64,000 nt of DNA from a virus, in the IMG/VR virus record IMGVR_UViG_3300006086_000006, positions 1 to 64,000 of that record; one strand, 5' to 3'. Of the stretch, positions 17,806 to 36,185 are shown in pieces. The position numbers and the translations under genes are program-made. The notes under the pieces are model-generated. The model saw nothing but the letters and a program-made list of their open reading frames with translations. It had not been told where the DNA came from and made no database searches. The stretch's first letter is position 1, and each line of letters begins with the position of its first letter.

Positions 17806-17915
17806 TTGATACTCCTGAAGTTTACAAACATTTGAATATGGATTATGAGCTATACCTACAAAGTGTAGACAGGATAGATATTTCTCTGACAACTCATTAT
17901 ATCATATTTTAAAAC
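17806..17915 (-). promoter_or_regulatory. Promoter/leader element, copy 1 of 4
   Basis: Minus-strand extended -10 TGATATAAT (TATAAT at 17896-17901), with TTGCAT 17 bases upstream as a possible -35. Then come an inverted repeat (TGAGTTGT...ATAGCTCA), the conserved ATGTTTGTAAACTT stretch and AGGAG. It drives the gene starting at 17803. Close copies lie at 23123, 27490 and 36079. Confidence 0.8.
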
Positions 17916-17927
17916 AGGATGCAACAA

Positions 17928-18551
17928 TTAAATGTTTATTTTTGGTAGTGCAGAGAATACCAAATTACTCTCACAAAATGCTTGTAATCCTGCTTCTGGA
18001 AATAAAACATTGTACAAACCAAAAGCAACATTACCAGAGCTATAATACAGGCGGATACGAGCACCGGATTCTAACAATCCTTCAATACGGTCAGATAAGA
18101 CTTCGGTATCAGGTAATTCTTCCTCCGAGTCCTCATCCCTATCATCTATAAAGGCTACTAGTATTTCAGCGTAGTCCTTTAGCACATCGTTAAAGTTGCC
18201 ATACAGCGCCATCAATTGCGCAAATGGACCTCTGCCACTAACTTGGGTAGTAACAATAAGAACGCCAATATGTTCGTAGAAAATAGTTTGAACATCGTTT
18301 TTATAAATGATGTCAAAAAGTTCATTCATAACTTGAACAAATGATTCTGCCATGGCTTCGGTAACACGACTCTTTGATTTAGATTTACGTGGTGGTTTAA
18401 CTGAACCTTCTCGCTCTGCATCACCAGAAACTATATGTAATAATTCGGCACAAGTATTCTGCAAAGAAGTTAACCCATCCGTAATCTCGGTTTGTCTATC
18501 TTCCAACCCTTTCAAACGAGCACTTATACGTTTTAAATCTTTATCTTCCAT
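17928..18551 (-). CDS. Hypothetical protein
   Basis: 207 residues from the ATG at 18551, whose A overlaps the upstream stop (TAATG). N-terminal coiled-coil-like segment (LKRISARLKGLEDRQTEITDGL), then a basic KPPRKSKSKSR patch and a mixed alpha/beta body with an acidic loop DDRDEDSEEELPD. No family recognised. Confidence 0.7.
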   Translation of the reverse strand: MEDKDLKRISARLKGLEDRQTEITDGLTSLQNTCAELLHIVSGDAEREGSVKPPRKSKSKSRVTEAMAESFVQVMNELFDIIYKNDVQTIFYEHIGVLIVTTQVSGRGPFAQLMALYGNFNDVLKDYAEILVAFIDDRDEDSEEELPDTEVLSDRIEGLLESGARIRLYYSSGNVAFGLYNVLFPEAGLQAFCESNLVFSALPKINI

Positions 18552-19297
18552 TATCGTAATCTCATAAGTTTGTTGAATTGAAAATCGGTATCGGACACAC
18601 ACTCATAACGCAATAACTTCCACACACGCATATCTGGTTCTTCTGTGTGTGAAATAAGTTCTTCGATAGGTGTATTCCAATGTTGTTGAGAAGGTACCCA
18701 CGAATTACTGAAATTCCCATCTTGTATATTGCACCACACATGAGGTAAAGAGTCATCATGTTTTCTAAGCACTTGCTCTATCGCAAGATATGCCTGTTCG
18801 GTAGGTTCGGAATTTTCTGCAACAAGGCCAGCAGATATAAGAGAGGCTTTAATCGAACGGCGCAATTCTGTCTGTTTGGATTCCTTGCGAATCATTTTCA
18901 AACCCAACTTATTTACGGTGTGTTGCTTCAAACTTTCGCTGCAATCTGTTCGCATAAACACAAACATCAAACCATTGTTAGATTGCATTATATAGTGAGT
19001 ACCTGCGGCCAGAAGAGGTCTGTAGTAATCGACAATTTGTGTATGTGTATTTGACACAAAGTATTTATCGTAAACTTGATAATGCCCATCAACTATCGTT
19101 TCAATGATTACATCCAGATCGTTGTCGTATAGATAACTAAAATCGTTTTCACCGGGTGGTTGGGCTTCGATAACAACATACCCAATATCGCGTTTATGGT
19201 GAGCATAAACAGTGTCGGGTACACGGCGTTTATACTCTTCCATAACGTGGCAAATGTACTCTAGTAAACGCTCAGGTATTTCTTTATGTGCCGTCAT
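18551..19297 (-). CDS. Hypothetical protein
   Basis: 248 residues with an AAGGAA site upstream. Mixed composition; no known domain recognised. Translationally coupled to the following gene through TAATG. Confidence 0.7.
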   Translation of the reverse strand: MTAHKEIPERLLEYICHVMEEYKRRVPDTVYAHHKRDIGYVVIEAQPPGENDFSYLYDNDLDVIIETIVDGHYQVYDKYFVSNTHTQIVDYYRPLLAAGTHYIMQSNNGLMFVFMRTDCSESLKQHTVNKLGLKMIRKESKQTELRRSIKASLISAGLVAENSEPTEQAYLAIEQVLRKHDDSLPHVWCNIQDGNFSNSWVPSQQHWNTPIEELISHTEEPDMRVWKLLRYECVSDTDFQFNKLMRLR

Positions 19298-19300
19298 ATT

Positions 19301-19627
19301 TTATTCCTTATTTTCGTATTGTGCTAAACGCTTACGCAATTCTAAACATTCAGCCTCGGATTTTTGCAAAGCGCGGGATAACCAACGGATGCGATCTTTT
19401 ACGGCTTGCATCCAAACAATAGGTGTGTGATAACCTTCTTCATCGGCCAACAGCTTGCGCATATTGAGTGGTTGATCGTAGTTTAGATACGCACCATTTG
19501 CTATTTCATCATCAGTGTATTGTCCAAGACACAGAGCGGCGCGTTCTTTATCATAGTGCCCTGCATGTGGATCTTTTTCACCATTAGCATGCCATCTTGA
19601 TGAAGGTGTTTCTATAGGTTGTTCCAT
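19301..19627 (-). CDS. Conserved small phage protein (SRWHANGE-type)
   Basis: 108 residues. SRWHANGEKDPHAGHYDKERAALC near the N-terminus and AVKDRIRWLSRALQ in a C-terminal helix are features I recognise from small uncharacterised proteins of many unrelated tailed phages, followed by a Leu/Glu coiled coil. Function is unknown in that family. AGGAG upstream; it overlaps the preceding gene by one base. Confidence 0.75.
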   Translation of the reverse strand: MEQPIETPSSRWHANGEKDPHAGHYDKERAALCLGQYTDDEIANGAYLNYDQPLNMRKLLADEEGYHTPIVWMQAVKDRIRWLSRALQKSEAECLELRKRLAQYENKE

Positions 19628-19965
19628 TATTGTTCTCCTTTAGAGGTAGGTAATTCACGAATAGCAACATGTACAAAATCACCGTTGATAATATCTGGAT
19701 CGTTAGCGCGGTCGCGTTGGGCTTGCTTACTCATTTGATCTACAACATTATTTACAAGCGGCTCCAATAAACTCATCCAATCACTAATGTTAGCATGACT
19801 TTTTGATTTTGCCGGCATATCCCACACCCACGAATCATGTACTACTGACCAGTAGCAAATGATGCCTTTCTTTTGTAACTTGCGTTTACGTTTAGCACTA
19901 ACTAGCCGTACAACCGTTTCTTTACGCAACATAGAAACGTGAACGTCATTCATTAGATGTACCAT
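19627..19965 (-). CDS. Hypothetical small basic protein
   Basis: 112 residues. Basic N-terminal half (SAKRKRKLQKKG) and a Trp-containing core (YWSVVHDSWVWDMP). GAGG upstream of the start. No family recognised. Confidence 0.65.
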   Translation of the reverse strand: MVHLMNDVHVSMLRKETVVRLVSAKRKRKLQKKGIICYWSVVHDSWVWDMPAKSKSHANISDWMSLLEPLVNNVVDQMSKQAQRDRANDPDIINGDFVHVAIRELPTSKGEQ

Positions 19966-19966
19966 A

Positions 19967-20149
19967 TTATGACCTCGTAGGAGTAGGCGTTAAACCAAAT
20001 TTGTTTTTATAATCTGCGATTTGGCTGGCGTGTTTATCTAATGCCATTTTCCACAATATCGGCTTTATTGTGCGTAGCGCATGGATACTAGATACTAGGG
20101 TATCTAGTTCAACAGTTGCAGCAGCAGCAGCAGCAGCAGAAGTATTCAT
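19967..20149 (-). CDS. Hypothetical 60-aa protein with polyalanine run
   Basis: Start at 20149 forms an ATGA overlap with the upstream stop and has GGAG upstream; an ATG 12 bases earlier is less well placed. Residues 4-11 are alanines coded by a GCA-type repeat. No family recognised. Confidence 0.6.
   Translation of the reverse strand: MNTSAAAAAAATVELDTLVSSIHALRTIKPILWKMALDKHASQIADYKNKFGLTPTPTRS
20118..20138. repeat. (GCA)7 trinucleotide tract
   Basis: Seven perfect GCA units on the plus strand, read on the minus strand as (TGC)7 in the frame that gives the polyalanine run of the small gene at 19967. A likely slippage site. Confidence 0.9.
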
Positions 20150-20436
20150 CTTACTCTCCATATACCTTTTAAGATACTGTCTCTTGTTATTCGGAGTTTT
20201 GTTTTGTGTTCTTCACACAACTTGACGACATTAGGATATTGCTTGATAGTATTAGGTATAATATCCTTTTCAACCAAGTTATACAAACAAATAACATAAC
20301 CCTCTGCAGCCTCTCGGCTAATGTAGCCGTTAGATATTGAGTTCAAAGTAATTGTCCTAGTCAACAGAACAACCAAAACGAGCAAAAGAATTACGGCGAA
20401 ACCAAATAGTACGACTATTTTATAATCAATCCACAT
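20146..20436 (-). CDS. Small membrane-anchored protein
   Basis: 96 residues from the ATG at 20436 (AGAGG upstream, 11-base overlap with the upstream gene). One strong transmembrane segment at about residues 6-28 (IVVLFGFAVILLLVLVVLL) is followed by a polar domain. The N-terminal anchor without a cleavage site suggests an inner-membrane protein. Spanin or superinfection-exclusion roles are possible, but nothing specific supports them. Confidence 0.7.
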   Translation of the reverse strand: MWIDYKIVVLFGFAVILLLVLVVLLTRTITLNSISNGYISREAAEGYVICLYNLVEKDIIPNTIKQYPNVVKLCEEHKTKLRITRDSILKGIWRVR

Positions 20437-20896
20437 GGTCAGATACCTCTGCAAGGTAGTCTGAGATAGCATACATATCTGCAACTGTTTCTTTAAACGG
20501 TGTTGGATATACGTTAGCCACACAGGTAACTGGTGAAGTGTTCGGTAACATAATATCGCAGTTATCAAACGTGGTTTCATTGCCGATGCGCGTTGCCTGC
20601 AGTTCATCAGGCAAATCGAAGAAGTCTGCCGATAGTACCACAGAATGTTTCTTTAGTTCTGCAAATACTTTCTCGCGCATTGTGTGCAAGGTTCTACCGA
20701 TAACTGCCAATCTATCACGATTGCGCTTATCATCAAACACACGATGATTCAACAAGATACGGAGAATATCTTGTTCAGACATACGCGGAGATATTGGGAA
20801 TAACACTTGTTCTGTTTTTGGTGATACAACAACTTCATAAGAAGTGTTTTGGCATGTAACAGATAACACACCGTACAAGTTTGTATATTGTCGCAT
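20426..20896 (-). CDS. Hypothetical protein
   Basis: 156 residues from the ATG at 20896 (AAGG 7 bases upstream). Alternating beta/alpha composition; no motif recognised. Overlaps the membrane-protein gene downstream. Confidence 0.7.
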   Translation of the reverse strand: MRQYTNLYGVLSVTCQNTSYEVVVSPKTEQVLFPISPRMSEQDILRILLNHRVFDDKRNRDRLAVIGRTLHTMREKVFAELKKHSVVLSADFFDLPDELQATRIGNETTFDNCDIMLPNTSPVTCVANVYPTPFKETVADMYAISDYLAEVSDHVD

Positions 20897-20906
20897 GATG
20901 TACCTT

Positions 20907-21365
20907 CTATTTGGGATAAATACCGTTAAACATGGATTGAACAATAGCAATAGTAGGTTTATCTGGCACTTTGCTATTGACGTTGTTCGTTATATACCTA
21001 GCCGTCAAAACTAGGAATGTATGCAGTTGTGCTTTAACGTCCTCGTACGGTGGTGTTTCTTCCACCAAATCGTCAGTAGTGACTGCATCATACCACTGAG
21101 GTATATTTTTCATCCACATCCAATCATAAACACGTCGCTCTTTAGCCTTAGCTTTAGTTTTGTAAACAAAGCGCGATAGAAAAGCAGAATACTCAACACA
21201 CCAATGATGGAACTCTTGTGCATTTGGCAGAGCAACCATTTTAATGGCATGGCGTAACATTTCAGGAGAGTATTCCGTACAATCATGTTCTAATTTGCTA
21301 AGGGAAAAACTCATGCTTGTAGAAACAAAGTTTTTCTTAGGACGTGTTGAAATTGTAATACGCAT
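20907..21365 (-). CDS. Hypothetical protein
   Basis: 152 residues from the ATG at 21365 (GAGG upstream). Aromatic, basic middle (KTKAKAKERRVYDWMWMKNIPQW). No family recognised. Confidence 0.7.
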   Translation of the reverse strand: MRITISTRPKKNFVSTSMSFSLSKLEHDCTEYSPEMLRHAIKMVALPNAQEFHHWCVEYSAFLSRFVYKTKAKAKERRVYDWMWMKNIPQWYDAVTTDDLVEETPPYEDVKAQLHTFLVLTARYITNNVNSKVPDKPTIAIVQSMFNGIYPK

Positions 21366-21373
21366 AACACACC

Positions 21374-21778
21374 TCAACTATAGAAGGTATAAAAATCTTG
21401 GTACTCTACTTTAATATCAGTAGGTGCTAAGATTAATACAGTGAATGATGCAAATGGTTTACCGTTAGAGAAAATACCATCACTGTGTCGTGAGCGTAAA
21501 GTGTAATCCTTGCCGTTAGTAATGGAAGTAAACACGCTATCTATCTCACAGTAAACAAAATTTAGGATTCTGTTGACAGCAGCAGGGTCGCAATTAGGCA
21601 AAGTGTTCGGTAGGTATTTTGTAACATGCTTTTTAAGGCGCTCAAACAAACTACCTTGAGTATCGCTCAACTTTATCTTAATGTTTAAGGTTAGCTTGGA
21701 AATGATAACAAAGTTCGGCACTATTGTATCATGTTCCTTTTCAGTATTCATGCCATTGAATGCAATTAATATTTTCAT
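21374..21778 (-). CDS. Hypothetical protein
   Basis: 134 residues; a predominantly beta-rich reading (FVIISKLTLNIKIKL, FASFTVLILAPTDIKV). Weak GAG-type site upstream. No family recognised. Confidence 0.65.
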   Translation of the reverse strand: MKILIAFNGMNTEKEHDTIVPNFVIISKLTLNIKIKLSDTQGSLFERLKKHVTKYLPNTLPNCDPAAVNRILNFVYCEIDSVFTSITNGKDYTLRSRHSDGIFSNGKPFASFTVLILAPTDIKVEYQDFYTFYS

Positions 21779-21781
21779 GGG

Positions 21782-22099
21782 TCACTCTATTAAGATGATT
21801 TTGAATTTACGGAAGGCTAACCACATCATAAATGTGGGGTTAAGCACCGAGGATGTTATGATGTACGGACACAGCAAGTCTTTGTTAAAGTAGTCTGCAA
21901 ACAGGCCAAAGAAATAAAACAAAAGCAAAGCATTAAGTGCCGTAAATACACAGACTGAAAGAAACTTTATATAAACAATCAAATGGAGTTTCTTTTTATC
22001 TGAGGTCGGTGAAGAATTAGCTAAAATAGCTTCTAATTCATCTTGCGGTATTCCAGAACCGTGGACCCACATTGGTATACTATCAATTTCGTTAGGCAT
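21782..22099 (-). CDS. Hypothetical membrane protein, two TM segments
   Basis: 105 residues. A polar N-terminal 37 precedes two hydrophobic stretches, about 38-66 (LIVYIKFLSVCVFTALNALLL) and 75-97 (YIITSSVLNPTFMMWLAF). AAGGAA upstream. Function unknown. Confidence 0.65.
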   Translation of the reverse strand: MPNEIDSIPMWVHGSGIPQDELEAILANSSPTSDKKKLHLIVYIKFLSVCVFTALNALLLFYFFGLFADYFNKDLLCPYIITSSVLNPTFMMWLAFRKFKIILIE

Positions 22100-22289
22100 T
22101 TTTATTTCCTTTTAACGATTCACAATACAATTCCTTAGCCGCAGATTCTATGGCATTATAATCATCTGCAATATGGAAACCTTTTTGTATCAAAACTTCT
22201 CGTACGGTATAATCACAAACTTTAACGCTTTCAGAATACACTGCAACATGCGCAGTGCGTAAATCTAAATGAACAGTTATATCAGCCAT
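22092..22289 (-). CDS. Hypothetical 65-aa protein
   Basis: Overlaps the next gene by 8 bases; weak AAAGA-type site upstream. Mixed composition, no motif recognised. Confidence 0.55.
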   Translation of the reverse strand: MADITVHLDLRTAHVAVYSESVKVCDYTVREVLIQKGFHIADDYNAIESAAKELYCESLKGNKNA

Positions 22290-22323
22290 TATAAAATCTT
22301 TGTACTATGAAAAGACTTTATTG

Positions 22324-22710
22324 TTAGTGAATTGTTGTACTGGAATCTACAAACGATTTATTTTTGAATCGTGTTGGTTCCTCGCGCACGTTCTTAATTG
22401 CAACAGCTTTATTACCAGAAGTCGCTTTCAACATTTTAATAACGGCTGGAGCATACACGTTTTCAAACCAATCACTGTCAACAGACACGTCATCAGGAGC
22501 ATCTACCAATGCAGCACGTATAGTAGTAACAAATTCTACGGCAGCTTCTGGTAACATATTTTGTTCTACAATACCTAACACCAATTCATCATCAGTATTT
22601 TCCTCAAAGTCGGCAGGAGAAGGCGCAGCAAATGTGCGTATAGAAGATATACTGTCTCTTTCTATAGCGCGTAGCAATTGGCATGCGGGGCAATTACAAT
22701 CGTCGGTCAT
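22324..22710 (-). CDS. Hypothetical acidic protein with N-terminal CxCxxC
   Basis: 128 residues. DCNCPACQ at the N-terminus could hold a metal or a redox centre; the rest is acidic and helical. AAGGAG upstream. No family recognised. Confidence 0.65.
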   Translation of the reverse strand: MTDDCNCPACQLLRAIERDSISSIRTFAAPSPADFEENTDDELVLGIVEQNMLPEAAVEFVTTIRAALVDAPDDVSVDSDWFENVYAPAVIKMLKATSGNKAVAIKNVREEPTRFKNKSFVDSSTTIH

Positions 22711-22722
22711 GGTAGTTTCTCC

Positions 22723-23118
22723 TTATTTTATTTCTGAGAATATAACGCCAGTATTGTGCGTTATAGCGGTTGATAATACGGATTGAATGGCAGTGCCAAT
22801 AACTACTTTAGTATTTGGGCGCATGATAGTGTGACGCTTACCCGGAATAGATTCCAGAAGCAGTTGTGCGACTACAGGAGATATATCATAGAACAGTTCA
22901 CGCGCTTTCGTGCTGTTCAAACTTTCTTTGAATACACCGCCTAGATGCTCCGTATTCGGAGAGTGGAATAAGGCTAAACGGCGCACGTTCAAATAATTGC
23001 GAACATGCGGTAATGCGTATTCAATGAACTGGCACAAATCATTCGCGTCCAGTTTTACGTCAAAGTGTACGTGTTCACCATCTGGTTTATTAATACGCAA
23101 CTTTACAAATTTACACAT
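22723..23118 (-). CDS. Hypothetical protein behind leader copy 2
   Basis: 131 residues from the ATG at 23118, preceded by the AGGAG of leader copy 2. Two beta-alpha halves with basic residues (KLRINKPDGEHVHFDVKL). No family recognised. As first gene behind a host-type promoter it is a candidate early gene. Confidence 0.7.
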   Translation of the reverse strand: MCKFVKLRINKPDGEHVHFDVKLDANDLCQFIEYALPHVRNYLNVRRLALFHSPNTEHLGGVFKESLNSTKARELFYDISPVVAQLLLESIPGKRHTIMRPNTKVVIGTAIQSVLSTAITHNTGVIFSEIK

Positions 23119-23122
23119 GATT

Positions 23123-23230
23123 GAACTCCTGAAGTTTACAAACATTTTAATATGTATTAAAAGCTATACCTGCAAAATTTATGAACAGGATGTTTCGCAG
23201 GTATAGCTCATTATATCACATTTTGAAAAC
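23123..23230 (-). promoter_or_regulatory. Promoter/leader element, copy 2 of 4
   Basis: Minus-strand TGATATAAT (-10 TATAAT at 23210-23215; TTGTTT 16 bases upstream). The inverted repeat is perfect here: AGCTATACCTGC (23162-23173) with GCAGGTATAGCT (23197-23208). The loop carries AACAGGATGTT. ATGTTTGTAAACTT and AGGAG follow, leading into the gene at 23118. Confidence 0.82.
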
Positions 23231-23240
23231 AAAACAAAGT

Positions 23241-23552
23241 TTAATTTTTAACGCACGATAAGGATTTATTCATATCACTATCAACGTAGTGGCAAGTAAA
23301 ACCAGTTGGCAATGTTATTTCATGTATAGTGTGATTGTTATACACGAACTCTGTGGCAGATACTTCCTTGTCATCCAATTCATAATGCCTAATATCGTTA
23401 TGCGTTATTGGTACATGCTGTGCAGGAGGTGCAGTTGGATGTGCCTGTTGTTGCTCATTTGTAACTAGTTGATCGTTCCCATGTACTGTGGTGTATATTT
23501 TGAATAGTAGGAATGCTACAATCAAAAACATCATAAGGGACAGTGTTCGCAT
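23241..23552 (-). CDS. Hypothetical protein with N-terminal signal anchor
   Basis: 103 residues. Hydrophobic residues 4-20 (LSLMMFLIVAFLLFKIY) act as a signal anchor or signal peptide, followed by a polar His/Gln-rich domain with two Cys near the C-terminus. It would face the periplasm. GAGGAG upstream. Function unknown. Confidence 0.65.
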   Translation of the reverse strand: MRTLSLMMFLIVAFLLFKIYTTVHGNDQLVTNEQQQAHPTAPPAQHVPITHNDIRHYELDDKEVSATEFVYNNHTIHEITLPTGFTCHYVDSDMNKSLSCVKN

Positions 23553-23554
23553 AA

Positions 23555-24289
23555 CTACTCCTCTAATTCAATGGCAGCACTAAGCATCTTACGCAATTTC
23601 TTTAAGTGCTTAGTATCTATGGATACGCCTTTTGGGCTCGGTGCAAATTCAGTCATCTGCTTTGTTTTGTACCATGCGCGGATATCCAATTTCTTAGCAC
23701 CATCCACTGTATTTATACGCACACTGATTTGCGTGGCATCAGATACAGGTATAGTTCCTAGTTCAACAACATCAGGCGTAAACGATTTCTTGCCTGAATC
23801 TTTTTCTTTCTTTGCAGGAGTAGATTTAGATTGAGCAACAGCAACAGTTTTCTTGCTATTAGCTTTCTTGCTATCGTGTTGCACATAACTGGGCAATGTA
23901 TCTAAATCTTTACCTGTAACGAGGTTATAAAACTCTCGACTTGGAATAACACCATCAGCAATATACTGACGATAATCATTCGGCCACGTACAACCTTTGT
24001 ACAACAATGCTCCACCAATAACGTCATCAGATTCTTCCCACCGATGAACATTAGGCTTTTTAGTCTTTACTGCTTTGGCTTTCTTTGAAACATCATCTAA
24101 CTTACGCAAGAACGCTTTGCGATTGTAACCTTCAGGTTTCGCAGTTATTACTGGGAATGGCAGACCGCTTTCATCTTTTAGCAGACATTCACGCCATTGT
24201 CCAAATACGTTAGATTCCCAATAACAACCAGTGTTTAGCTTTTTGAAAGCAACATCACCTGTGAATTGTTTTGTACTTAATTGTTTCAT
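23555..24289 (-). CDS. PC4/p15-like ssDNA-binding protein
   Basis: 244 residues. The C-terminal ~60 (ISVRINTVDGAKKLDIRAWY, then KGVSIDTKHLKKLRKML) follow the PC4/Sub1 (p15) coactivator pattern: strand, KxLDIRxYY, G-hydrophobic, then Lys-rich helix. PC4-type domains bind single-stranded or melted DNA and occur in some bacteria and phages. The N-terminal 130 contain three Trp/Cys-bearing segments of unknown fold, joined by a Lys/Ser linker. A role at transcription bubbles or replication forks is plausible. Confidence 0.65.
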   Translation of the reverse strand: MKQLSTKQFTGDVAFKKLNTGCYWESNVFGQWRECLLKDESGLPFPVITAKPEGYNRKAFLRKLDDVSKKAKAVKTKKPNVHRWEESDDVIGGALLYKGCTWPNDYRQYIADGVIPSREFYNLVTGKDLDTLPSYVQHDSKKANSKKTVAVAQSKSTPAKKEKDSGKKSFTPDVVELGTIPVSDATQISVRINTVDGAKKLDIRAWYKTKQMTEFAPSPKGVSIDTKHLKKLRKMLSAAIELEE

Positions 24290-24296
24290 AGTAACC

Positions 24297-24674
24297 TCAA
24301 ACTGAGTATATGCGTAAAGCTATCATAATAGTATGCGCATCAACTTTGCGGCTTATAACTGTCATGCGTTTATTTTTGTACTGCAACCTGTGTATAACAT
24401 CACACATTTGGGTGAAGCCTGCGAATCCAAGATATTTGGGAATAACATCCCCAAAATGTTCTGTCATATCATAACAAAAGCGCAAACAGTATGTGTGTAA
24501 TCTGCTATCACGGGGTGGTTCACAAACAACATGAAAAGGCATACTCTGTATGACCATTTCCAAATCTTCATTAGAATCATACTGCAACATTTTAGCAAAT
24601 AAAGATAAGTTGACCTTTTGCTGGCGCGTGACTGGAACCATTACGGCTGTAGTAGATTGTAAGGCAATTTTCAT
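24297..24674 (-). CDS. Hypothetical protein
   Basis: 125 residues from the ATG at 24674 (AGAGG upstream, 1 base after the upstream stop region). Possible helical bundle; no family recognised. Confidence 0.65.
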   Translation of the reverse strand: MKIALQSTTAVMVPVTRQQKVNLSLFAKMLQYDSNEDLEMVIQSMPFHVVCEPPRDSRLHTYCLRFCYDMTEHFGDVIPKYLGFAGFTQMCDVIHRLQYKNKRMTVISRKVDAHTIMIALRIYSV

Positions 24675-24675
24675 T

Positions 24676-25071
24676 TTATTCACCTCTCGCTTTTAGAGAT
24701 TGTGCGAGGTCTAGTTGTGCGTCTACTTCTCGCATAACAGAATCGCGCAATATGCAAAAGCTCTTTGTCTCTTCCAAGTCCAAACGAATACGCATATTCT
24801 CAATGTTTGTAGTAACATCGGCCTTGTACATCAAAATGATTTCTTTGGAGATTTCATTCCAATCATACGTTTCCAAAACCTCTGCCGCACTTTTCTGTAA
24901 CAACATTAGAGTGGTCTCCATATTAAGGAGAACATGTGCCTTAACTTCATTTATGTGTCTACGCTCTGCACGGTACAGTATATGTGGTATAACTATTGTG
25001 GAGAATGTGAGTGCGCAAAATGCAGCGCCGGCAAAAAATAAACCAATATCGTTTAAAAGAGAAATATTCAT
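24676..25071 (-). CDS. Hypothetical membrane protein
   Basis: 131 residues from the ATG at 25071 (GAGG upstream). One TM segment at about residues 9-33 (LFFAGAAFCALTFSTIVIPHIL), then a long helical cytoplasmic part (ERRHINEVKAHVLL). Function unknown. Confidence 0.65.
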   Translation of the reverse strand: MNISLLNDIGLFFAGAAFCALTFSTIVIPHILYRAERRHINEVKAHVLLNMETTLMLLQKSAAEVLETYDWNEISKEIILMYKADVTTNIENMRIRLDLEETKSFCILRDSVMREVDAQLDLAQSLKARGE

Positions 25072-25078
25072 AATAACC

Positions 25079-26031: not shown

Positions 26032-26035
26032 ACAT

Positions 26036-26470: not shown

Positions 26471-26479
26471 ACATTACTC

Positions 26480-26864: not shown

Positions 26865-27488
26865 TTAAAATGTGATGCTCATATTTTTATGTTTAATGAC
26901 AACCTTACCACCTAGAGTGCGAAGTGTTCGTGCCATAATACCTAATGTAGGGTAACCTAATAATCGAGCAACTACCTCAAAATTGGTATTCATAAACCCC
27001 AGTAGAAGTTGAATGTGACCGTTCTCTAAAACAAGTACGTTGAAATAGAATGGTTTAATGGCGTGTGCGTCCACATGAACAGCGAGAGTCATCAACAATT
27101 CAGTTGCAGAATAATAGCCATATTTGTCCATAACATCCTGCGTATTGTTCACGTACGGTGAATCACACATTGTGGCTCGAATATGACCTACAAAGTTACC
27201 GTGTGGCTGGTAGTCCCGAATTGTGGTCCCTACATAAGCATGTATAGTTGTTAGATTGGTGTTTTTAAATTTAAAAACCTTTTTCGAGTCTGCAAATTCA
27301 GCTATATGACTGTGTTGTTTTATTTCCACAGATTGTGAAATACTGCGGACGGTTATAATTGTCTCTCGATATTCAGTCAGAGAAACTATGCTGAATTTGG
27401 TGTACACTAATGCTTTGTGTGATTTATGTTTAACGCAAAGAAGCAGGGATTCAATCAAGGATACTGTAGATTCGTATGTAGCTTTCAT
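26865..27488 (-). CDS. Hypothetical protein behind leader copy 3
   Basis: 207 residues with its AGGAG inside leader copy 3. Hydrophobic beta-rich body; no domain recognised. Candidate early gene by position behind the TGATATAAT element. Confidence 0.7.
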   Translation of the reverse strand: MKATYESTVSLIESLLLCVKHKSHKALVYTKFSIVSLTEYRETIITVRSISQSVEIKQHSHIAEFADSKKVFKFKNTNLTTIHAYVGTTIRDYQPHGNFVGHIRATMCDSPYVNNTQDVMDKYGYYSATELLMTLAVHVDAHAIKPFYFNVLVLENGHIQLLLGFMNTNFEVVARLLGYPTLGIMARTLRTLGGKVVIKHKNMSITF

Positions 27489-27489
27489 A

Positions 27490-27601
27490 TTTGATACTCC
27501 TAAAGTTTACAAACATTTGAATATGGATTATGACGTATACCTACAAAGTTTGAACAGGATGTTCTTTTGTAAATATAAGTCATTATATCATATTTTAAAA
27601 C
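27490..27601 (-). promoter_or_regulatory. Promoter/leader element, copy 3 of 4
   Basis: -10 TATAAT at 27582-27587 within TGATATAAT. The inverted repeat TGACTTATATTTACAAA / TTTGTAGGTATACGTCA keeps pairing through G-U pairs and a swapped C-G pair at the base. An inner GAACA-TCC-TGTTC hairpin is present, then ATGTTTGTAAACTT and AGGAG. Confidence 0.82.
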
Positions 27602-27661
27602 AAAAATATATCTAAATTTTGCGAGATTGGAGACGTAAAAATGGGAGCCTAGTGCTCCCTA

Positions 27662-28503: not shown

Positions 28504-28512
28504 ATAATGCCC

Positions 28513-28872: not shown

Positions 28873-28873
28873 G

Positions 28874-29203: not shown

Positions 29204-29207
29204 GATA

Positions 29208-29513
29208 TTAGTCCAATGAGAATACAACCTTTCCATCATAGCTACTGTCTGTTACAAACACTTCTTGGAAGATACGCTCTTCCAAATCTACAATATCAGA
29301 AGCATCTTCCAAAGTACAATCGCCTAGTAAATATAGGCGATTGGAATTGTCATCCATTTCAAATAGTTCAAGCGTCAATGACACAACGGTCGGCTCTCGC
29401 AATATTTTGTTCATAACGCTAATCAAGAATATTTCAAGGTCATGGTCTTCTATGAACCGTTTGACTTCGTCCTCATCACCAACAATATCCGCAAAGGCTT
29501 TTATGTGCTTCAT
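29208..29513 (-). CDS. Hypothetical acidic protein
   Basis: 101 residues, acidic (DEDEVKRFIEDHDLE). ATGA overlap with the upstream gene. No family recognised. Confidence 0.6.
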   Translation of the reverse strand: MKHIKAFADIVGDEDEVKRFIEDHDLEIFLISVMNKILREPTVVSLTLELFEMDDNSNRLYLLGDCTLEDASDIVDLEERIFQEVFVTDSSYDGKVVFSLD

Positions 29514-29935
29514 ACACGGTACCCAGCAAAGACTTCTATATAATAATTGCGGTCTTTCAATTCGAGTGCTTCATCTATTGAATATTTAATGGCACTTTCA
29601 GGTTCAGTTGTAATTAATTCTCGCTCTAAGTCCATAACATAAAGTTTCTGGCGACTGTGCGAGGTCTTGTATGCTACAAATTGAACATCTGTAGTGACAG
29701 TAATGTCGTACTCAACATATAACCCGCGTTCGCAGTTCTGATCCATACCAACAATACGAAAAGAAGTTATAGAAAAATCACAAGATGTGTCAGGTGCTAT
29801 ATCGGCTATACATTGCTGAGCATAGGTTAACGCACTACCACTTAAAGTGAATCCCGATTCTGTCTTCAGACTACAAGTTAAAGATGTTACATCGTAATTG
29901 AAATGTTCAGAGTTTGCTGGTATGTATACTTTCAT
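29510..29935 (-). CDS. Hypothetical protein
   Basis: 141 residues; beta-rich with a Cys-containing middle. Lies 5 bases past the topoisomerase A stop, so probably cotranscribed with it. No family recognised. Confidence 0.6.
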   Translation of the reverse strand: MKVYIPANSEHFNYDVTSLTCSLKTESGFTLSGSALTYAQQCIADIAPDTSCDFSITSFRIVGMDQNCERGLYVEYDITVTTDVQFVAYKTSHSRQKLYVMDLERELITTEPESAIKYSIDEALELKDRNYYIEVFAGYRV

Positions 29936-29940
29936 AATAT

Positions 29941-31563
29941 TTACTCGAATTTTAGACCAGACTGTGGAGAATCGGGTGATTTCAAATAAGTGGCAACACG
30001 TTCTTCTGTATCACGTGCGGCACGACCACCAGGGTCTTTCAGGTCTTTAGATAGCTGCATAATCTCGGCTTTCAACGCACGGACCTTTTCTTTGATAGCA
30101 CCTGCTTCCAACTTAGCCAACTGTCGAACTTTACGATCCAATATAATTGTCGCATCTTCTACAGGCATCTTCAACGCACTTGCTAATGTAACATCAGGCT
30201 CTTTGGCAACAAGAACCTTAGGTAATATCTTGAGAATTTTGTCCATGTTTTCAATAGCAAACAAGTACACCTCATTGATATGCAGGTCGCGCTCAGCCTT
30301 CATTTTCAAGTGCTTAATCATTTTCACTTCAAGCGCAATACGATATTTAATCCACGCCTGTAGTAATGACAAGTAATTCACATACTTGAATTTGTTAGTT
30401 TCGTCCGACTTACGAATTGTGATACCAAGACGATAGTTAACCGATGATGTAATAATGTGGTCAACTTTCTCACAAATAGAATCAAAGCGGTCATCCGATA
30501 AAGATTTCTGCAATTCAATATTGAATAGTGCACCGTACGGTCCGCTACCAACAGATTTTTTACCTTGTGCGGAGTATGCTTCCCTAACACCTTCAATGTT
30601 ACTTATCTTGGCAAGGGTGTTATCTATGTTCTTAACTGAAGATAATGATCCAGGTGTAAACGATTGAATACGAATAACACGCTTATCAAAATCGTAATCA
30701 GCTTTTGGCATGTAGGTAATATTACCCTTACCTGTGCTAATCATTTCTAAGAACGCATCATCATCGGTAGCATCATCACAACCAAACGCATGTTGAATCT
30801 TTAATTGCTTGGCTAACTTTTTATGATTATACTCAACACCTTTCAACATTTCAATAACGACTTTAGCAACACTCTTGAATGAGAAGCTAGGATTACCAGC
30901 ACGTACACCATAAGCTGGTGCTGGTACGTTACCTATGAACAGTATGTAAGGCAGCAGGGCAGGCATGTACAGAGGAATAACATCATCACCAGAGAAGTTT
31001 GGTACTTTTGGTATTACTTCAAGATACTTAGTGTCTGCCATAAACAAATGTGCAAACTTACTTATCTTTGCTTCAGTATATCTATAAGCTGCTGCCATAT
31101 TTATAGGTGTGCCCCAGTTACCTTGACCGTCAACAACTGGAGGCATCGTGTTAGCGATAGTAACCATAGCACCATAAGTAGCAGCATCTCCGTGTGGATG
31201 ATATTTACCAATAGCATCACCTACTGTACGTGCTGATTTCTTATACGAGCTGCTTGGCCGTAAACCTAAACCACACAATGACCACAACACAGCTCTATGT
31301 GACGGTTTTAGACCATCTCGAAAATCAGGAATAGCACGTTCTTCAACAACATAACTACCGTACCTACGTAGTGCATCTTCAGTAAAATCCGCCATACCCA
31401 TATTGATAACATTAGATTCAGGTTGATTCAACATTGGCAGAAACTTAACTGGAGCATCTACATCCAACAATTCAGCAGTTGGTGCGATCGTCTTTTTGCT
31501 CACGTTTGTACCACTAACATCAACGCCCTTTATATCACGAGTGTTTTTCTTAGACTTCTTCAT
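29941..31563 (-). CDS. Type II topoisomerase, DNA-cleaving subunit (GyrA/ParC/gp52-like)
   Basis: 540 residues. Contains IPDFRDGLKPSHRAVLW (winged-helix domain), DAIGKYHPHGDAATY, and AAYRYTEAKIS with catalytic Arg161-Tyr162, the core of the breakage-reunion domain. It ends soon after the tower and coiled-coil regions, with no C-terminal beta-pinwheel of gyrase, so like T4 gp52 it should decatenate or relax rather than supercoil. The N-terminal 45 residues are an extra Lys/Thr-rich extension. It starts one base after the ATPase subunit stop, an obligate pair. Needed to unlink replicating phage DNA. Confidence 0.95.
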   Translation of the reverse strand: MKKSKKNTRDIKGVDVSGTNVSKKTIAPTAELLDVDAPVKFLPMLNQPESNVINMGMADFTEDALRRYGSYVVEERAIPDFRDGLKPSHRAVLWSLCGLGLRPSSSYKKSARTVGDAIGKYHPHGDAATYGAMVTIANTMPPVVDGQGNWGTPINMAAAYRYTEAKISKFAHLFMADTKYLEVIPKVPNFSGDDVIPLYMPALLPYILFIGNVPAPAYGVRAGNPSFSFKSVAKVVIEMLKGVEYNHKKLAKQLKIQHAFGCDDATDDDAFLEMISTGKGNITYMPKADYDFDKRVIRIQSFTPGSLSSVKNIDNTLAKISNIEGVREAYSAQGKKSVGSGPYGALFNIELQKSLSDDRFDSICEKVDHIITSSVNYRLGITIRKSDETNKFKYVNYLSLLQAWIKYRIALEVKMIKHLKMKAERDLHINEVYLFAIENMDKILKILPKVLVAKEPDVTLASALKMPVEDATIILDRKVRQLAKLEAGAIKEKVRALKAEIMQLSKDLKDPGGRAARDTEERVATYLKSPDSPQSGLKFE

Positions 31564-31564
31564 C

Positions 31565-33568
31565 TTAGTTCTCCAACCCTAACAACTGACGACGGTACAC
31601 AGCATCTTCACCAACCACACCTCTAAAGAATTTCGCTTGCTCAGCACTTTCAAAAGGGTTGATACGAATTAGATTACGAATCTTAGGATCGAATGCAATA
31701 GGTTCGAGAACAGTCTCATCAACCTCCCCCCAACCTTTAATGCGTATAATGTCTTTGTCTTTCACTTCTTTAGGCGCAGTTGCGCGAGCTTCTTGGAATG
31801 TCTCACCACCATACAACTTACCTTTATAAACAACTGCATACAGTGGAGCTCGAACACACCACACGCGACCTTGACGCAGTAAGTCTGGCATCAAACGGTA
31901 AATAGCTGCTAGGAACAACACTGCAATGTGATAACCATCAGGATCAGGATCAACTAAGAATATCAGATGTGCAGCACGTAACTTATCAACAGACAGTGTG
32001 GGGTTTTCTGCTTTAGGATCAAGAGTCTTAATATCAGCACCCAAACAGATAAGCATGTTTTGAATTTCTTCATGTGCTAACACCTTAGCTAAAGTGGCTT
32101 TTAGTGCGTTAAGAGGTTTACCTCCTGCACCTAATACTTCTTGATACATACCATTACGAGCATCAATAGCAGTTTTAGCCGCAGAATCACCTTCAACAAC
32201 GTAAAGCTCACGCTCACTTGATTTAGCTTTTGGACTAGCAGCTAAACAAGAGGGTAGTGTATTACCTTTTTTCTTTTTCTTAACATCCGCCATACTCTTA
32301 ACAACTGCCGCTAATTCTTCACGACCTTTAGTCATGGTCTGTGCGCGTTTGATAATCGCTTTAGCGACTTTACTGTTTGCTTTGAAATAGCTCTCAAATA
32401 CAGGCAGCATGATTTCATGTACTTCACGGTCAACTTTACTGGCTAGCTTATCTTTAACTTGGCTCGTGTACGCCGCACCGTGCATACGCCAGTCAAACAT
32501 ACCAGTAAGGCCAATTAACAAGTCACTGTTTGAAAAGCCTGCATCTTTCTTTTTCTTGCCCTTAGATACAGGTAAGAATGGTTTGATCGCCTGGCCAAGT
32601 GCAGTCATAAAGCCTGTAACGTGCCAACCACCATCAACAGTTGGTGATGTGTTTACGAATGTTAAGAAGTTATCCGTGTCTGGATGATCTGCCCACACAA
32701 TAGCACAACTAATGTTATCGTTCTTAAACACAAGCGGTTTGCCCATAGCAGATAGCTCATGGACTTCGCACATTTGTTTTGGTATCCACGCTAAATCTTT
32801 CTTATTGATAAACGTGAGGTCTTTACGCTTACCTTTACGGATAAACGAGAATCGAATCTCTAAACCTGGATTCAAGTAAGCCATGTTCTTAAGCCAAGAT
32901 GCAATTTGTTTTGCATTTGGTTCGGCTTTAACGAAATTCTTAGGCAGTGCTTTACCACGACGGGCATTTTCTGATACTATGGACTGATTGAGTTTTATTG
33001 TGACAATAGTACCGTAATCTGTAGGCTTATCTCGAAGCATTACGGCAACGTCTTTATCCACAGATTTAACTTGTACTGGATGCGGACCTTTTGTTGATAT
33101 GTCTCCACCTAGATACGCCTGATGTACTAGCTTATTTCTATAGTTTGACCATACTCGCATTTCTTCTGACACAGCATTTACAGCAGCAACACCTACGCCA
33201 TGGGTTCCTGCAGATGTTTTGTACGATGTAGCATTAAATTTACCGCCAGCGTGAACACGAGTAAACGCTGCCGTTAGAATACTAATCTTCTCGCCGGATT
33301 TTAGTGTCTTTAATTCGGTCGGCACACCTCCGGCACCATCTGCTACAGTTATATAGTCAGTATCGTAGTTTAAACACACTTCGATTAGCTTGTTTCTACC
33401 TGCAACGGCTTCATCGTAAGCGTTGTCGACAGGCTCCTTAACGCAGCGGTAGGCCATGTCCTCGCCTAGATTACCCAAGTACATAGACGGGTTGGCTTTT
33501 ATACCATCAAGATTTTCTAATACCTGAAAACCATCTTGGCTGGCACTTTTCTTTTTCTTTTCACTCAT
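31565..33568 (-). CDS. Type II topoisomerase, ATPase subunit (GyrB/ParE/gp39-like)
   Basis: 667 residues. GHKL ATPase with NPSMYLGNLG, EPVDNAYDEA (catalytic Glu, Mg-binding Asn) and DGAGGVP. The transducer domain follows, then a TOPRIM with VEGDSA at its start and VDPDPDGYHI (DxDxDG, metal-binding) near residue 540. Length and order match ParE/GyrB without the insert of enterobacterial GyrB. AGGAAAG upstream, with a TGTAAATA-type box (ATGTAAATA) 34 bases upstream, so the two topoisomerase genes have their own promoter candidate. Confidence 0.95.
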   Translation of the reverse strand: MSEKKKKSASQDGFQVLENLDGIKANPSMYLGNLGEDMAYRCVKEPVDNAYDEAVAGRNKLIEVCLNYDTDYITVADGAGGVPTELKTLKSGEKISILTAAFTRVHAGGKFNATSYKTSAGTHGVGVAAVNAVSEEMRVWSNYRNKLVHQAYLGGDISTKGPHPVQVKSVDKDVAVMLRDKPTDYGTIVTIKLNQSIVSENARRGKALPKNFVKAEPNAKQIASWLKNMAYLNPGLEIRFSFIRKGKRKDLTFINKKDLAWIPKQMCEVHELSAMGKPLVFKNDNISCAIVWADHPDTDNFLTFVNTSPTVDGGWHVTGFMTALGQAIKPFLPVSKGKKKKDAGFSNSDLLIGLTGMFDWRMHGAAYTSQVKDKLASKVDREVHEIMLPVFESYFKANSKVAKAIIKRAQTMTKGREELAAVVKSMADVKKKKKGNTLPSCLAASPKAKSSERELYVVEGDSAAKTAIDARNGMYQEVLGAGGKPLNALKATLAKVLAHEEIQNMLICLGADIKTLDPKAENPTLSVDKLRAAHLIFLVDPDPDGYHIAVLFLAAIYRLMPDLLRQGRVWCVRAPLYAVVYKGKLYGGETFQEARATAPKEVKDKDIIRIKGWGEVDETVLEPIAFDPKIRNLIRINPFESAEQAKFFRGVVGEDAVYRRQLLGLEN

Positions 33569-33601
33569 ACTTAACTTTCCTAATAGAGAAATGTTTTTGT
33601 A

Positions 33602-33611
33602 TATTTACATT
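33602..33611 (-). promoter_or_regulatory. TGTAAATA box upstream of topoisomerase operon
   Basis: Minus-strand AATGTAAATA, 34 bases before the ATG at 33568; it overlaps the 3' end of the previous gene. Confidence 0.5.
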
Positions 33612-33973
33612 AATGGTTTGGTTGAAACATGTTTATGTTGCATTCCATGCTCGGAAGAATTGCCCCAAATATCAGAATAATGTTTATCCAATTCAGTAAC
33701 CCTAGATATTTGGTGTAAAGACGAAAAATCATTGCCCCAATAAACATAATTAGAACTATGCAAACATTCAACAATAAACTTCTTCCACATTTCAATGCCA
33801 AGTGGACGCTGTGTCTTAGATGTGCGGATGATACCAATTTCTTTCAATACATAGTGCATAAATTTTCTAGCATACCCACGCACGAAACTTTTATCAGACC
33901 AAACAAAAGTTTGTGTTGCTATAGAATTTTCAATGTCAGCTCTGCATAAAAATACAATACGACCATCTTTCAC
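33605..33973 (-). CDS. Hypothetical protein; true start probably 34079 across a frameshift
   Basis: The unbroken frame has only a GTG (33973) as a plausible start, without a ribosome-binding site. Upstream the same frame continues open for 34 more codons, reading KLFISTSSPKIDYPKIENV and on, protein-like, up to 34075. There an ATG followed by four A at 34079 would enter this frame if one A were absent. So either a one-base insertion (mutation or sequencing error) broke the gene near its start, or slippage on the A run makes the full protein of about 157 residues. Product not recognised. Confidence 0.55.
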   Translation of the reverse strand: MKDGRIVFLCRADIENSIATQTFVWSDKSFVRGYARKFMHYVLKEIGIIRTSKTQRPLGIEMWKKFIVECLHSSNYVYWGNDFSSLHQISRVTELDKHYSDIWGNSSEHGMQHKHVSTKPLM

Positions 33974-34075
33974 ATGCGCAGCATCCGTATTTTTATCAGG
34001 ATCATCTAAATGTAATTGGACATTTTCGATTTTAGGATAATCTATTTTCGGAGAACTTGTTGAAATAAATAGTTT

Positions 34076-34399
34076 TCATATACGTGTATCCAACTCAATT
34101 AGAATATTTGCTAATATTTTAAAAGGTAATTCTGAATAAGTATCTAGGATATAATGATTTTTATCTATAAATAACCAGGCAATAAAATCACCTTGCGTTA
34201 TATAAACAGAATTATATCCTGTTAAATTTTCTGCAGGTAACACGTAGACACAACAATCAAACAATATAAACTGTAAGGCCTCAGGTAAAGAATGCTCGCG
34301 CAACATTTTTTCACGAAAACCGGGTATAACAAAGTGCATACGAAGATTAAGGAATCTTGAATACAGTACGTCATGTAATGCTTTATATTTTGCAGTCAT
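34076..34399 (-). CDS. Hypothetical protein
   Basis: 107 residues from the ATG at 34399, four bases after the upstream stop. Hydrophobic alpha/beta. The terminal TGA overlaps the ATG at 34079 of the disrupted downstream gene (ATGA). No family recognised. Confidence 0.65.
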   Translation of the reverse strand: MTAKYKALHDVLYSRFLNLRMHFVIPGFREKMLREHSLPEALQFILFDCCVYVLPAENLTGYNSVYITQGDFIAWLFIDKNHYILDTYSELPFKILANILIELDTRI

Positions 34400-34403
34400 A
34401 ACA

Positions 34404-34850
34404 TTACACCACATCCGACAGGTATTGCCCAGCCTGTAATTCAATGTGCGTACAACCATCTTGTGACTTACAACCATCAACAAACGAATCCCAGTTTTTA
34501 TCCATTAAGTCTAAGAATGGTTGCGGCGAACCTCGCTCTGTGTATCGTTGCATATACTCTGCTTTTAATTCTTTCGCAGGATATACTAACATGTAGGGAA
34601 TATTGTTATCAACCAAAGCCTGACGGACAACATCGTGAGAAGACACCATAACAAACGCATTATCATTAATAGCGACCTTGATATGTTCGATATAGTTTGC
34701 AGGGAAATTGTCTTTCGGGAATTTGCTACTATCAGAATCAGATACACGCTCTCTAGTGCTTTGAAAGTGTGATTTACCTATACCAGGAAAACCACTGATA
34801 ACATAGGCAGGTTCTTGCGCTGTTGCAGTAATAGTTAAATCAATATTCAT
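34404..34850 (-). CDS. P-loop NTPase / kinase-like phage protein
   Basis: 148 residues from the ATG at 34850 (GGAG upstream). Walker A GFPGIGKS at residues 20-27, then SDSDSSKF, VMVSSHDVVRQALV and IPYMLVYPAKELKAEYMQRYTERG, typical of small nucleotide-kinase-like P-loop proteins I recognise from many phages, ending HIELQAGQYLSDVV. Substrate unknown; nucleotide or nucleic-acid-end kinase are options. Confidence 0.8.
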   Translation of the reverse strand: MNIDLTITATAQEPAYVISGFPGIGKSHFQSTRERVSDSDSSKFPKDNFPANYIEHIKVAINDNAFVMVSSHDVVRQALVDNNIPYMLVYPAKELKAEYMQRYTERGSPQPFLDLMDKNWDSFVDGCKSQDGCTHIELQAGQYLSDVV

Positions 34851-35217
34851 TTTCAGTCTCCATAGTAGTTTCAAGTCTATTGCGAATAGAGCTAAGATTT
34901 AATCTAGCACGAGTATCAATACAATCTTGGATCATATTAGGTAAAAACGGGCTGCTTTTAGTTATTGTGCTATATTGTGATTTGTGTACAAACACTTCAA
35001 CGGACCATGCTTTGTGGCGTGTTTGAATGTCTTGGATAGCAGGTTTGAGTGGTGCCTTCACAGGCAGTAGATATACTACTGCATTTAGGTAGTTGTCCAT
35101 AATATGCGATATTTGTTGCAACATAGTTGAATCGCAACGGTGTGCAGTGTCCAGTGTATCTACGTAGATAAGTGAATCGACGACTTCACTGAAAAATATA
35201 AAAATCGGTACAAACAT
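34840..35217 (-). CDS. Hypothetical protein
   Basis: 125 residues from the ATG at 35217 (GGAG upstream). Overlaps the P-loop gene by 11 bases. No family recognised. Confidence 0.65.
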   Translation of the reverse strand: MFVPIFIFFSEVVDSLIYVDTLDTAHRCDSTMLQQISHIMDNYLNAVVYLLPVKAPLKPAIQDIQTRHKAWSVEVFVHKSQYSTITKSSPFLPNMIQDCIDTRARLNLSSIRNRLETTMETENEY

Positions 35218-35231
35218 TTTTGTCTCCAAAA

Positions 35232-35262
35232 GCAAAATGCCTCCACGAGGGAGGCATTTTTA
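35232..35262. terminator. Bidirectional intrinsic terminator
   Basis: AAAATGCCTCC, 4-base loop, GGGAGGCATTTTT. Directly after the 39-residue ORF on the minus strand; probably ends the tRNA-region transcript. Confidence 0.85.
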
Positions 35263-35264
35263 TA

Positions 35265-35384
35265 TCACGCGACTTTAGCGAAAGCTAGGTGTTGTGTAGG
35301 TGCAACTATCGTCTTACGTTTTACTGTAATGACTTGTACGTTTTTTCCATTCGTTTTTAACACAGTTCTTGTTTTTATTAACAT
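35265..35384 (-). CDS. Putative 39-aa basic protein
   Basis: Reads MLIKTRTVLKTNGKNVQVI and on to AFAKVA; strongly basic, beta-like. AAGGA lies 11 bases upstream, and it ends two bases before the terminator stem, which supports a real small gene. Function unknown. Confidence 0.5.
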   Translation of the reverse strand: MLIKTRTVLKTNGKNVQVITVKRKTIVAPTQHLAFAKVA

Positions 35385-35425
35385 GATTAAAAGATTCCTT
35401 ACGAATAACATTAGTTGGGTTATGT

Positions 35426-35502
35426 TGGTGGGCCCACGCAGACTTGAACTGCGGACATTTCGGTTATGAGCCGAACGCTCTGACCAACTGAGCTATAGGC
35501 CC
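35426..35502 (-). tRNA. tRNA with CAT anticodon (Met, or Ile2 if modified)
   Basis: Complete 77-base cloverleaf: acceptor GGGCCTA/TGGGCCC, D arm GCTC...GAGC, anticodon stem TTCGG-CTCATAA-CCGAA, T arm CGCAG-TTCAAGT-CTGCG, discriminator A and encoded CCA. The G1-C72 pair excludes an initiator tRNA. It could be elongator Met, or tRNA-Ile whose C34 is converted to lysidine by the host TilS; the TATAGCTCAGTTGG start is common in both. Confidence 0.93.
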
Positions 35503-35534
35503 GTTGTAAGGGACAGTAGTTATCTGTCAACACT

Positions 35535-35544
35535 TATTTACACT
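35535..35544 (-). promoter_or_regulatory. TGTAAATA box upstream of tRNA
   Basis: Minus-strand AGTGTAAATA, 33 bases upstream of the tRNA 5' end. Between them a small hairpin GACAG-TAGTTAT-CTGTC occurs (35512-35528). Confidence 0.5.
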
Positions 35545-35545
35545 T

Positions 35546-35725
35546 TTAGCTTTCTTTACGAATAGCCTCGAGTTCTTGCTTTTCCACACGCATCAACGCA
35601 CGATCTAACTGGCGCTTAGCACTGCGGAACATTTCTTTGCGTTTCCCTGGAGCAGGTGCGCAGCAGTTACATTTCATACCGCCTGGACCAACTCGCAGGA
35701 ATTTGAAACAATACTTCTTTGACAT
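35546..35725 (-). CDS. Conserved-type 59-aa Cys-containing phage protein
   Basis: Reads MSKKYCFKFLRVGPGGMKCNC, then APAPGKRKEMFRSAKRQLDR and a charged helix to the end. KCNCC could bind a metal; the C-terminal half is a basic helix. GGAG 7 bases before the ATG and the codon pattern support a real gene. Function unknown. Confidence 0.75.
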   Translation of the reverse strand: MSKKYCFKFLRVGPGGMKCNCCAPAPGKRKEMFRSAKRQLDRALMRVEKQELEAIRKES

Positions 35726-35844
35726 AACAATTCTCCAATGATTGTACTACATCGAAGGAGTAATAGTTGTGCAGGATTCATGTTATACATAATGATTACC
35801 TTAAATAAAAGAGCAGGCCGTGGTAGTTTAATGCCGCAACTAGA

Positions 35845-35958
35845 TTAGATGAAACAGAGGAAGCTGAGACTGCGTAACCTCCAGTACATAACAGGATGTT
35901 TAACTGTCGACCCGCTAGGCTTCATCCCCGTTCGGTAACCATTCAGTCTCAACTTCAT
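35845..35958 (-). other. Structured segment with a possible 37-aa ORF
   Basis: Arms GCTGAGACTG (35863-35872) and CAGTCTCAAC (35944-35953) pair over 10 bp (one G-U) around a region with smaller pairings and AACAGGATGTT, the motif also found in leader copies 2 and 3. The minus strand is also open from the ATG at 35958 to TAA (MKLRLNGYRTGMKPSGSTVK...FLCFI) but lacks a ribosome-binding site. GTGTAAACATT, a variant of the promoter box, lies just upstream. It could be a small RNA, a leaderless peptide, or both. Confidence 0.45.
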
Positions 35959-36078
35959 ATTGTAATGTTTACACTTTTAAATTAAATCTATCCGATATCA
36001 TAAATACTCGTTTTATTAGAACACTCTAACAGAAAAAGGTTTAATAAAGTTGGTAAGCTTGAATATCTACATCACTAG

Positions 36079-36185
36079 ATTTGATACTCCTAAAGTTTAC
36101 AAACATTTCAATATTAACTATGAGCTATACCTACAAAGTGCAGACAGGATAGATATTTCTTTCACAACTCATTATATCATGTTTT
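36079..36185 (-). promoter_or_regulatory. Promoter/leader element, copy 4 of 4 (no gene attached)
   Basis: -10 TATAAT at 36171-36176 in TGATATAAT, inverted repeat TGAGTTGT/ATAGCTCA, ATGTTTGTAAACTT and AGGAG as in the others. Here the ribosome-binding site is followed by GTG-ATG-TAG, so no protein starts. It probably feeds the structured segment, the 59-aa gene and the tRNA downstream. Confidence 0.8.

Follow-up and report, generated by a model that had tools for sequence, protein, structure and literature searches.

We found that a promoter and its leader are repeated as a single cassette in a jumbo-phage genome and that, in some copies, compensatory changes preserve a stem near the predicted 5′ end of the mRNA. 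The window, meaning the whole 64,000-nucleotide stretch analyzed (positions 1 to 64,000 of the 146.8-kb IMG/VR virus record IMGVR_UViG_3300006086_000006), contains four copies. Three more are in a sibling record (d1 to d3), giving 7 copies in 2 records, related by duplication. Compensatory pairing occurs in three of them: copies 2 and 3 of the window and d1. We propose, with a probability of about one-half, that the cassettes are early promoters for host sigma-70 that have a 5′ UTR in common and that the 5′-terminal hairpin, where present, protects or regulates the mRNA.

The topoisomerase II large subunit encoded by the window record shares 73% identity with its counterpart in Pseudomonas phage PaBG and 67% with the one in Lu11. 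Therefore, the record is a fragment of a PaBG/Lu11-like jumbo phage. These phages carry many ORFan genes, and we know of almost nothing established about their early transcription. Homology searches indicate that the genes surrounding the copies are mostly ORFans. None of 10 proteins tested around the cassette copies had a PHROG match, nearly all proteins of the 16.6- to 28-kb block had no match in the corresponding loci of relatives, and protein searches with two genes downstream of copies gave no relatives. Other features of the window include a 972-amino-acid protein (37-2955, minus strand) with a match to UvsX-like recombinases at residues 557 to 781 and a separate N-terminal match to phrog_9666, and a protein (23555-24289, minus strand) whose C terminus contains a PC4 (transcriptional coactivator p15) domain that scores over the cut-off of Pfam PF02229. 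Several proteins contain long acidic or lysine-rich codon repeats (3037-3422, 9980-10310, and 15446-15705), and similar repeats occur in PaBG and Lu11.

The first-pass annotation had described four dispersed copies of a promoter/leader element of about 105 bp, and this description holds. They are at 17806-17910, 23121-23224, 27491-27596, and 36081-36185, all on the minus strand. By BLAST, copies 2 to 4 are 79 to 91% identical to copy 1 (E = 7e-19 to 1e-38), and the 146.8-kb record has no copies besides these four. All four contain TGATATAATGA, ATGTTTGTAAACTT, and AGGAG, and copies 2 and 3 contain the inner motif AACAGGATGTT, as had been reported. All four window copies contain the shorter ATCCTGT (minus strand), which, counting the sibling record, is an invariant loop motif in six copies. 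Each cassette has an extended -10 element, TGATATAAT, which is followed by a leader of about 90 nt with AUCCUGU, a 3′ arm around AGGUAUA, AAAUGUUUGUAAACUU, and AGGAG. The outer ends of the two arms are 51 to 52 bp apart, a nearly constant distance despite internal indels.

Copies 1 to 3 open blocks of ORFan genes, each lying directly before a coding sequence start with a Shine-Dalgarno (SD) sequence. Copy 1 (parts at 17806-17904) has its extended -10 TGATATAAT at 17896-17904, a -35 element (TTGCAT) at a 17-nt spacing, and a predicted +1 at 17890. Its leader contains AUCCUGU (17869-17875), the 3′ arm AGGUAUA (17851-17857), the box GUUUGUAAAC (17820-17829), and the SD (17812-17816), and it is the 5′ UTR of a 403-amino-acid ORFan (16592-17803, minus strand). 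A second ATCCTGTT lies in the -35/-10 spacer of copy 1 (17913, minus strand), 44 bp upstream of the leader ATCCTGT, and likewise in the spacer of d1 (L096, the sibling record, about 9770, minus strand). Copy 2 (parts at 23119-23218) has its extended -10 at 23210-23218 and its predicted +1 at 23204. Its strong stem is formed by a 5′ arm (23193-23210) and a 3′ arm (23160-23177) around the loop motif (23185-23191), followed by the box (23134-23143) and the SD (23126-23130). A mechanical ORF (22723-23145, minus strand) begins at an AUG inside the leader box; the SD instead supports 23118 as the likely start of the downstream gene (22723-23118, minus strand).

Copy 3 (parts at 27489-27590) has its extended -10 at 27582-27590 and its predicted +1 at 27576. 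The arms of its stem are at 27565-27582 (5′) and 27531-27548 (3′) and form two G-U pairs, with the loop motif at 27554-27560, the box at 27505-27514, and the SD at 27497-27501. It is the 5′ UTR of a 207-amino-acid ORFan (26865-27488, minus strand). A terminator-like hairpin is just upstream (27643-27659, minus strand), which fits a new transcription unit beginning at copy 3. Copy 4 (parts at 36080-36179) has its extended -10 at 36171-36179, a -35 element (TTGAAA) at a 17-nt spacing, and a predicted +1 at 36165. It has no strong stem; its box is at 36095-36104 and its SD at 36087-36091. The start codon position after the SD has been lost (AAATCTAG), and copy 4 reads into a tRNA-Met region. Downstream of it, at 35890 (minus strand), a third AACATCCTGTT is within a possible 37-amino-acid ORF without a PHROG match and may be chance coding sequence.

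The designation of the element as a promoter and leader is well supported by its position, extended -10, and SD. TGnTATAAT, the sigma-70 extended -10 sequence, is present in all seven copies, as TGATATAAT in six and TGCTATAAT in d3. We took the predicted +1 as the 6th nucleotide after TATAAT. The window also has a second motif, AAAA(C/G)TGTAAATA, at 4281, 5953, 10484, 11132, 15094, 35535, and 35966 on the minus strand and at 46935 on the plus strand, with further sites in the rest of the record; most are intergenic. The Lu11 record labels the same motif a "putative middle/late promoter." This phage group therefore likely has two promoter classes, and because the second matches the Lu11 middle/late motif, the sigma-70 cassette would be the natural early class.

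A pattern scan of IMG/VR identified a single contig with a strong copy, IMGVR_UViG_3300006086_000029 (26.9 kb). It has three copies: d1 (89 bits), d2 (75 bits), and a divergent d3 (24 bits). The contig encodes a terminase with 53% identity to the PaBG one, and therefore it is a fragment of a sibling phage. Outside the cassettes, the sibling and window records have no detectable protein or DNA similarity, probably because they cover different parts of the genome. Exact-motif scans of IMG/VR with a strict pattern and with a box-plus-SD pattern gave no matches. A looser box pattern gave 24 stretches, with the element only in L073 and coding or unrelated sequence in the rest; an arm pattern gave L073 alone. 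A search with the seven-copy consensus gave only the sibling record, blastn against annotated phages gave only chance matches, and 18 matches in genome contigs were rejected as chance. A sequence-model search gave no copies beyond the four in the window record and none in 18 relative records, and a pattern search of 8 of these also found none.

The copies differ in how well their arms pair. We counted pairs in an 18-position window from the last T of TATAAT and found 18/18 in d1, 17/18 in copy 2, and 16/18 in copy 3. Downstream of the predicted +1, these three copies have 12/12, 12/12, and 11/12 pairs, respectively, and in each the stem is stronger than with shuffled 5′ arms (p about 0.0005 or less). 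In copies 1, 4, d2, and d3, the stem energy was no better than with shuffled 5′ arms. Pairing in copies 1 and 4 is confined to the outer 8 to 9 bp, with two or three G-U pairs and a broken inner stem. In d2 it is mainly in the outer part, and d3 pairs poorly, with no helix above 4 bp between its arms. Compared with shuffled sequences, folds of the whole leader gave z scores of -4.8 for copy 2, -1.8 for copy 3, -0.3 for copy 1, and +1.1 for copy 4, and a 60-nt fold of d1 gave -3.2. Copies 2, 3, and d1 have a predicted stable stem within a few nucleotides of the 5′ end, and copies 1, 4, and d3 do not. The fold of d2, including a GUGA/UCAC pairing, varies with the start assumed, and we give that pairing no weight. 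An alternative 8-bp helix, AUAUCUAU/GUAGGUAU, is possible in copies 1, 4, and d2 (p = 0.03 to 0.06 each, values that are not independent). None of the leaders matched the covariance model of any Rfam 15 family, even at E ≤ 1; only tRNA reached threshold in the window.

Four of the seven copies (1, 4, d2, and d3) lack the long stem, and therefore it is not essential to the cassette. Furthermore, the 3′ arm is conserved even in copies without a partner arm, and so it must have another role besides pairing. This role could be as part of a shared translation-initiation region or as a binding site.

In d1 the stem is perfect over 18 bp and includes three new compensatory pairs. Relative to copy 2, d1 has three pairs that are changed on both sides and no inner pair that is broken. 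Simulated independent substitutions matched this result in 0.04% of cases from copy 2 to d1 and in 7.6% from d1 to copy 2. Of 500 shuffles, 3 reached the covariation score of six copies, and when the partner was slid by 1 to 3 columns, the paired cells fell from 78% to 37 to 48%. The first-pass annotation had stated that the arms of all four window copies stay complementary and had argued from this for selection on the palindrome. Complementarity is maintained in copies 2 and 3 but is lost from the inner stem of copies 1 and 4, and the argument for selection has support in copies 2, 3, and d1 and lacks it in copies 1, 4, d2, and d3. Its example, UGAG/CUCA versus UGAC/GUCA, is the sole Watson-Crick outer match and is broken in copy 2 (TGAG/CTTT) and in d2. 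The example maps upstream of the predicted start, in the least consistent part of the stem. Homologous copies with diverged arms, which were to count against the palindrome, do exist in d3 and in the outer arm of d2, whereas d1 is the opposite case.

Where the compensation occurs is informative. Among the stem-forming copies, all three 3′-arm changes facing transcribed bases (positions 12, 13, and 17) are matched. Among all copies, only one of seven changes facing untranscribed bases (positions 0 to 4) is matched by a Watson-Crick pair and one more by a G-U pair. The border between matched and unmatched changes is the predicted +1. RNA pairing predicts such a border, and a DNA operator and palindrome correction do not; with such small numbers, it is support and not proof. 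The earlier annotation had allowed either an operator or an RNA leader. Because changes are fully compensated only beyond the predicted +1, the RNA leader is the favored alternative; on the few sequences at hand, a 5′-terminal mRNA hairpin seems more likely than a DNA operator for about half of the copies.

According to our proposal, the cassettes would be a family of phage promoters of the host sigma-70 (extended -10) type that most likely act early, and all would share one 5′ UTR of about 90 nt ending in an SD. The predicted start of transcription is 6 nt beyond TATAAT. The RNA of copies 2, 3, and d1 would pair its first 12 or so nucleotides with the conserved UUUGUAGGUAU to form a stem-loop at the 5′ terminus, with AUCCUGU presented in the loop. 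Secondary structure at the 5′ terminus stabilizes E. coli mRNA and slows 5′-end-dependent decay (PMC3997798), and the phage stem would similarly shield the mRNA from such decay (RppH/RNase E). The constant downstream half (3′ arm, AAAUGUUUGUAAACUU, and SD) may serve as one translation-initiation region for several gene blocks. The start site, early timing, and protective or translational role are all predictions of this proposal. Two other ideas were rejected: an upstream ORF (MFVNFRS...), which has a conserved AUG but no SD and differing ends, and an intrinsic terminator, since U's follow the stem in copy 2 only. A CsrA/RsmA site (ACAGGAU) is on the antisense strand and was set aside.

Instead, the promoters might be repressed, through blocking or looping, by a phage or host regulator bound to the conserved half-site AGGTATAGCTCA (about +33 to +45) and, in copies that have it, to the inverted half-site TGAGCTATACCT, which overlaps the start. 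Even without a complementary 5′ arm (d3 and d2), the 3′ half-site is retained; in addition, the outer ends keep their spacing, one arm overlaps the -10/+1 region, and the gene at 14174-14473 encodes a weak HTH protein (phrog_2339, E = 0.0015). However, proteins prefer one half-site, whereas in copies 2, 3, and d1 the two arms have changed jointly, to sequences that differ among the copies. The two half-sites do not share one consensus: the 3′ one is conserved, and the 5′ one varies and covaries within each copy. Copy 3 also deviates from a palindrome by its two G-U pairs, and the outer positions, nearest the promoter, show the least symmetry. We consider an operator unlikely.

Slightly more doubtful is that duplication and recombination spread the cassette and templated quasi-palindrome correction made the palindromes, so that the hairpin is functionless and only the promoter and SD are selected. 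The copies do appear to be mosaics (the upstream region is common to copy 1 and d1, the outer 5′ arm to copy 2 and d1, and an identical 5′ arm to copy 4 and d2), and four of the seven lack the stem. However, compensation ends near the predicted +1 instead of crossing the whole palindrome, and ATCCTGT does not vary in six copies even though it is neither promoter nor SD. It is improbable, in our estimation, that the leaders form a phage-wide RNA regulon in which a phage or host RNA-binding factor binds the leader (5′ stem, AUCCUGU loop, and UUGUAGGUAUA and GUUUGUAAAC boxes) and coordinates the decay or translation of several gene blocks, the variants that have the long stem and those that lack it being tuned to different outputs.

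We think it very unlikely that the nascent leader is an antitermination element of the put/nut type that binds RNA polymerase or a phage protein for readthrough of long gene blocks. The cassette does recur immediately behind several promoters, where long gene blocks of a single direction begin, and HK022 putL is similarly just downstream of an early promoter (PMC9378689). However, HK022 put RNA is about 70 nt with two long stem-loops and is bound by the zinc-binding domain of RNA polymerase β′ (PMC9378689); our leaders have one strong stem at most, half of the copies have none, no Rfam family matches, and few terminator-like sites are available for readthrough. Least probable of all is a translational switch in which pairing between the loop UCCUG and the SD (C/UAGGA) keeps the SD hidden until it is freed by a factor. 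All seven copies have UCCU in the loop region, and copies 1 to 4 can form 5 bp with their own SD, C-to-U changes being kept as G-U pairs. However, d2 retains the loop although its SD at that place is lost, d1 pairs by only 4 bp, and any UCC loop would pair with any SD.

If the cassettes are sigma-70 promoters with an optional 5′ hairpin, then they would mark the starts of several transcription units in PaBG/Lu11 jumbo phages and could be searched for to locate such units in fragments that lack protein homologs. Leaders with and without the 5′ stem are also a natural series for testing its effect. We did not find a description of the cassette in the open papers searched. Protective 5′-terminal stem-loops of the ompA/papA type (Emory 1992 and Bricker 1999, both as cited in PMC3997798) resemble copies 2, 3, and d1 in that a sigma-70 transcript carries a stem at or close to its very 5′ end, before the SD. 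However, the phage stem is part of a repeated multi-operon cassette, is missing from about half of the copies, and has a conserved loop and downstream box. Like HK022 put, the leader is right downstream of phage promoters and repeated in one genome, but it has one stem instead of two and no Rfam sequence match. The Lu11 "putative middle/late promoter" motif (AAAACTGTAAATA), which is also found in this genome, is likewise a class of promoter that recurs between genes in this phage group, but its sequence is unrelated to the cassette and it has no conserved leader attached. The PaBG-like relative L035 has two near-identical intergenic TGCTATAAT promoters (15884-15945 and 19279-19340). However, their conservation is upstream of the -10, and their leaders are unlike each other, with predicted folds no better than shuffled sequences. 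The parts of the cassette are ordinary in kind, and what is new is that they recur together as a phage-specific unit whose 5′ stem is optional and covaries.
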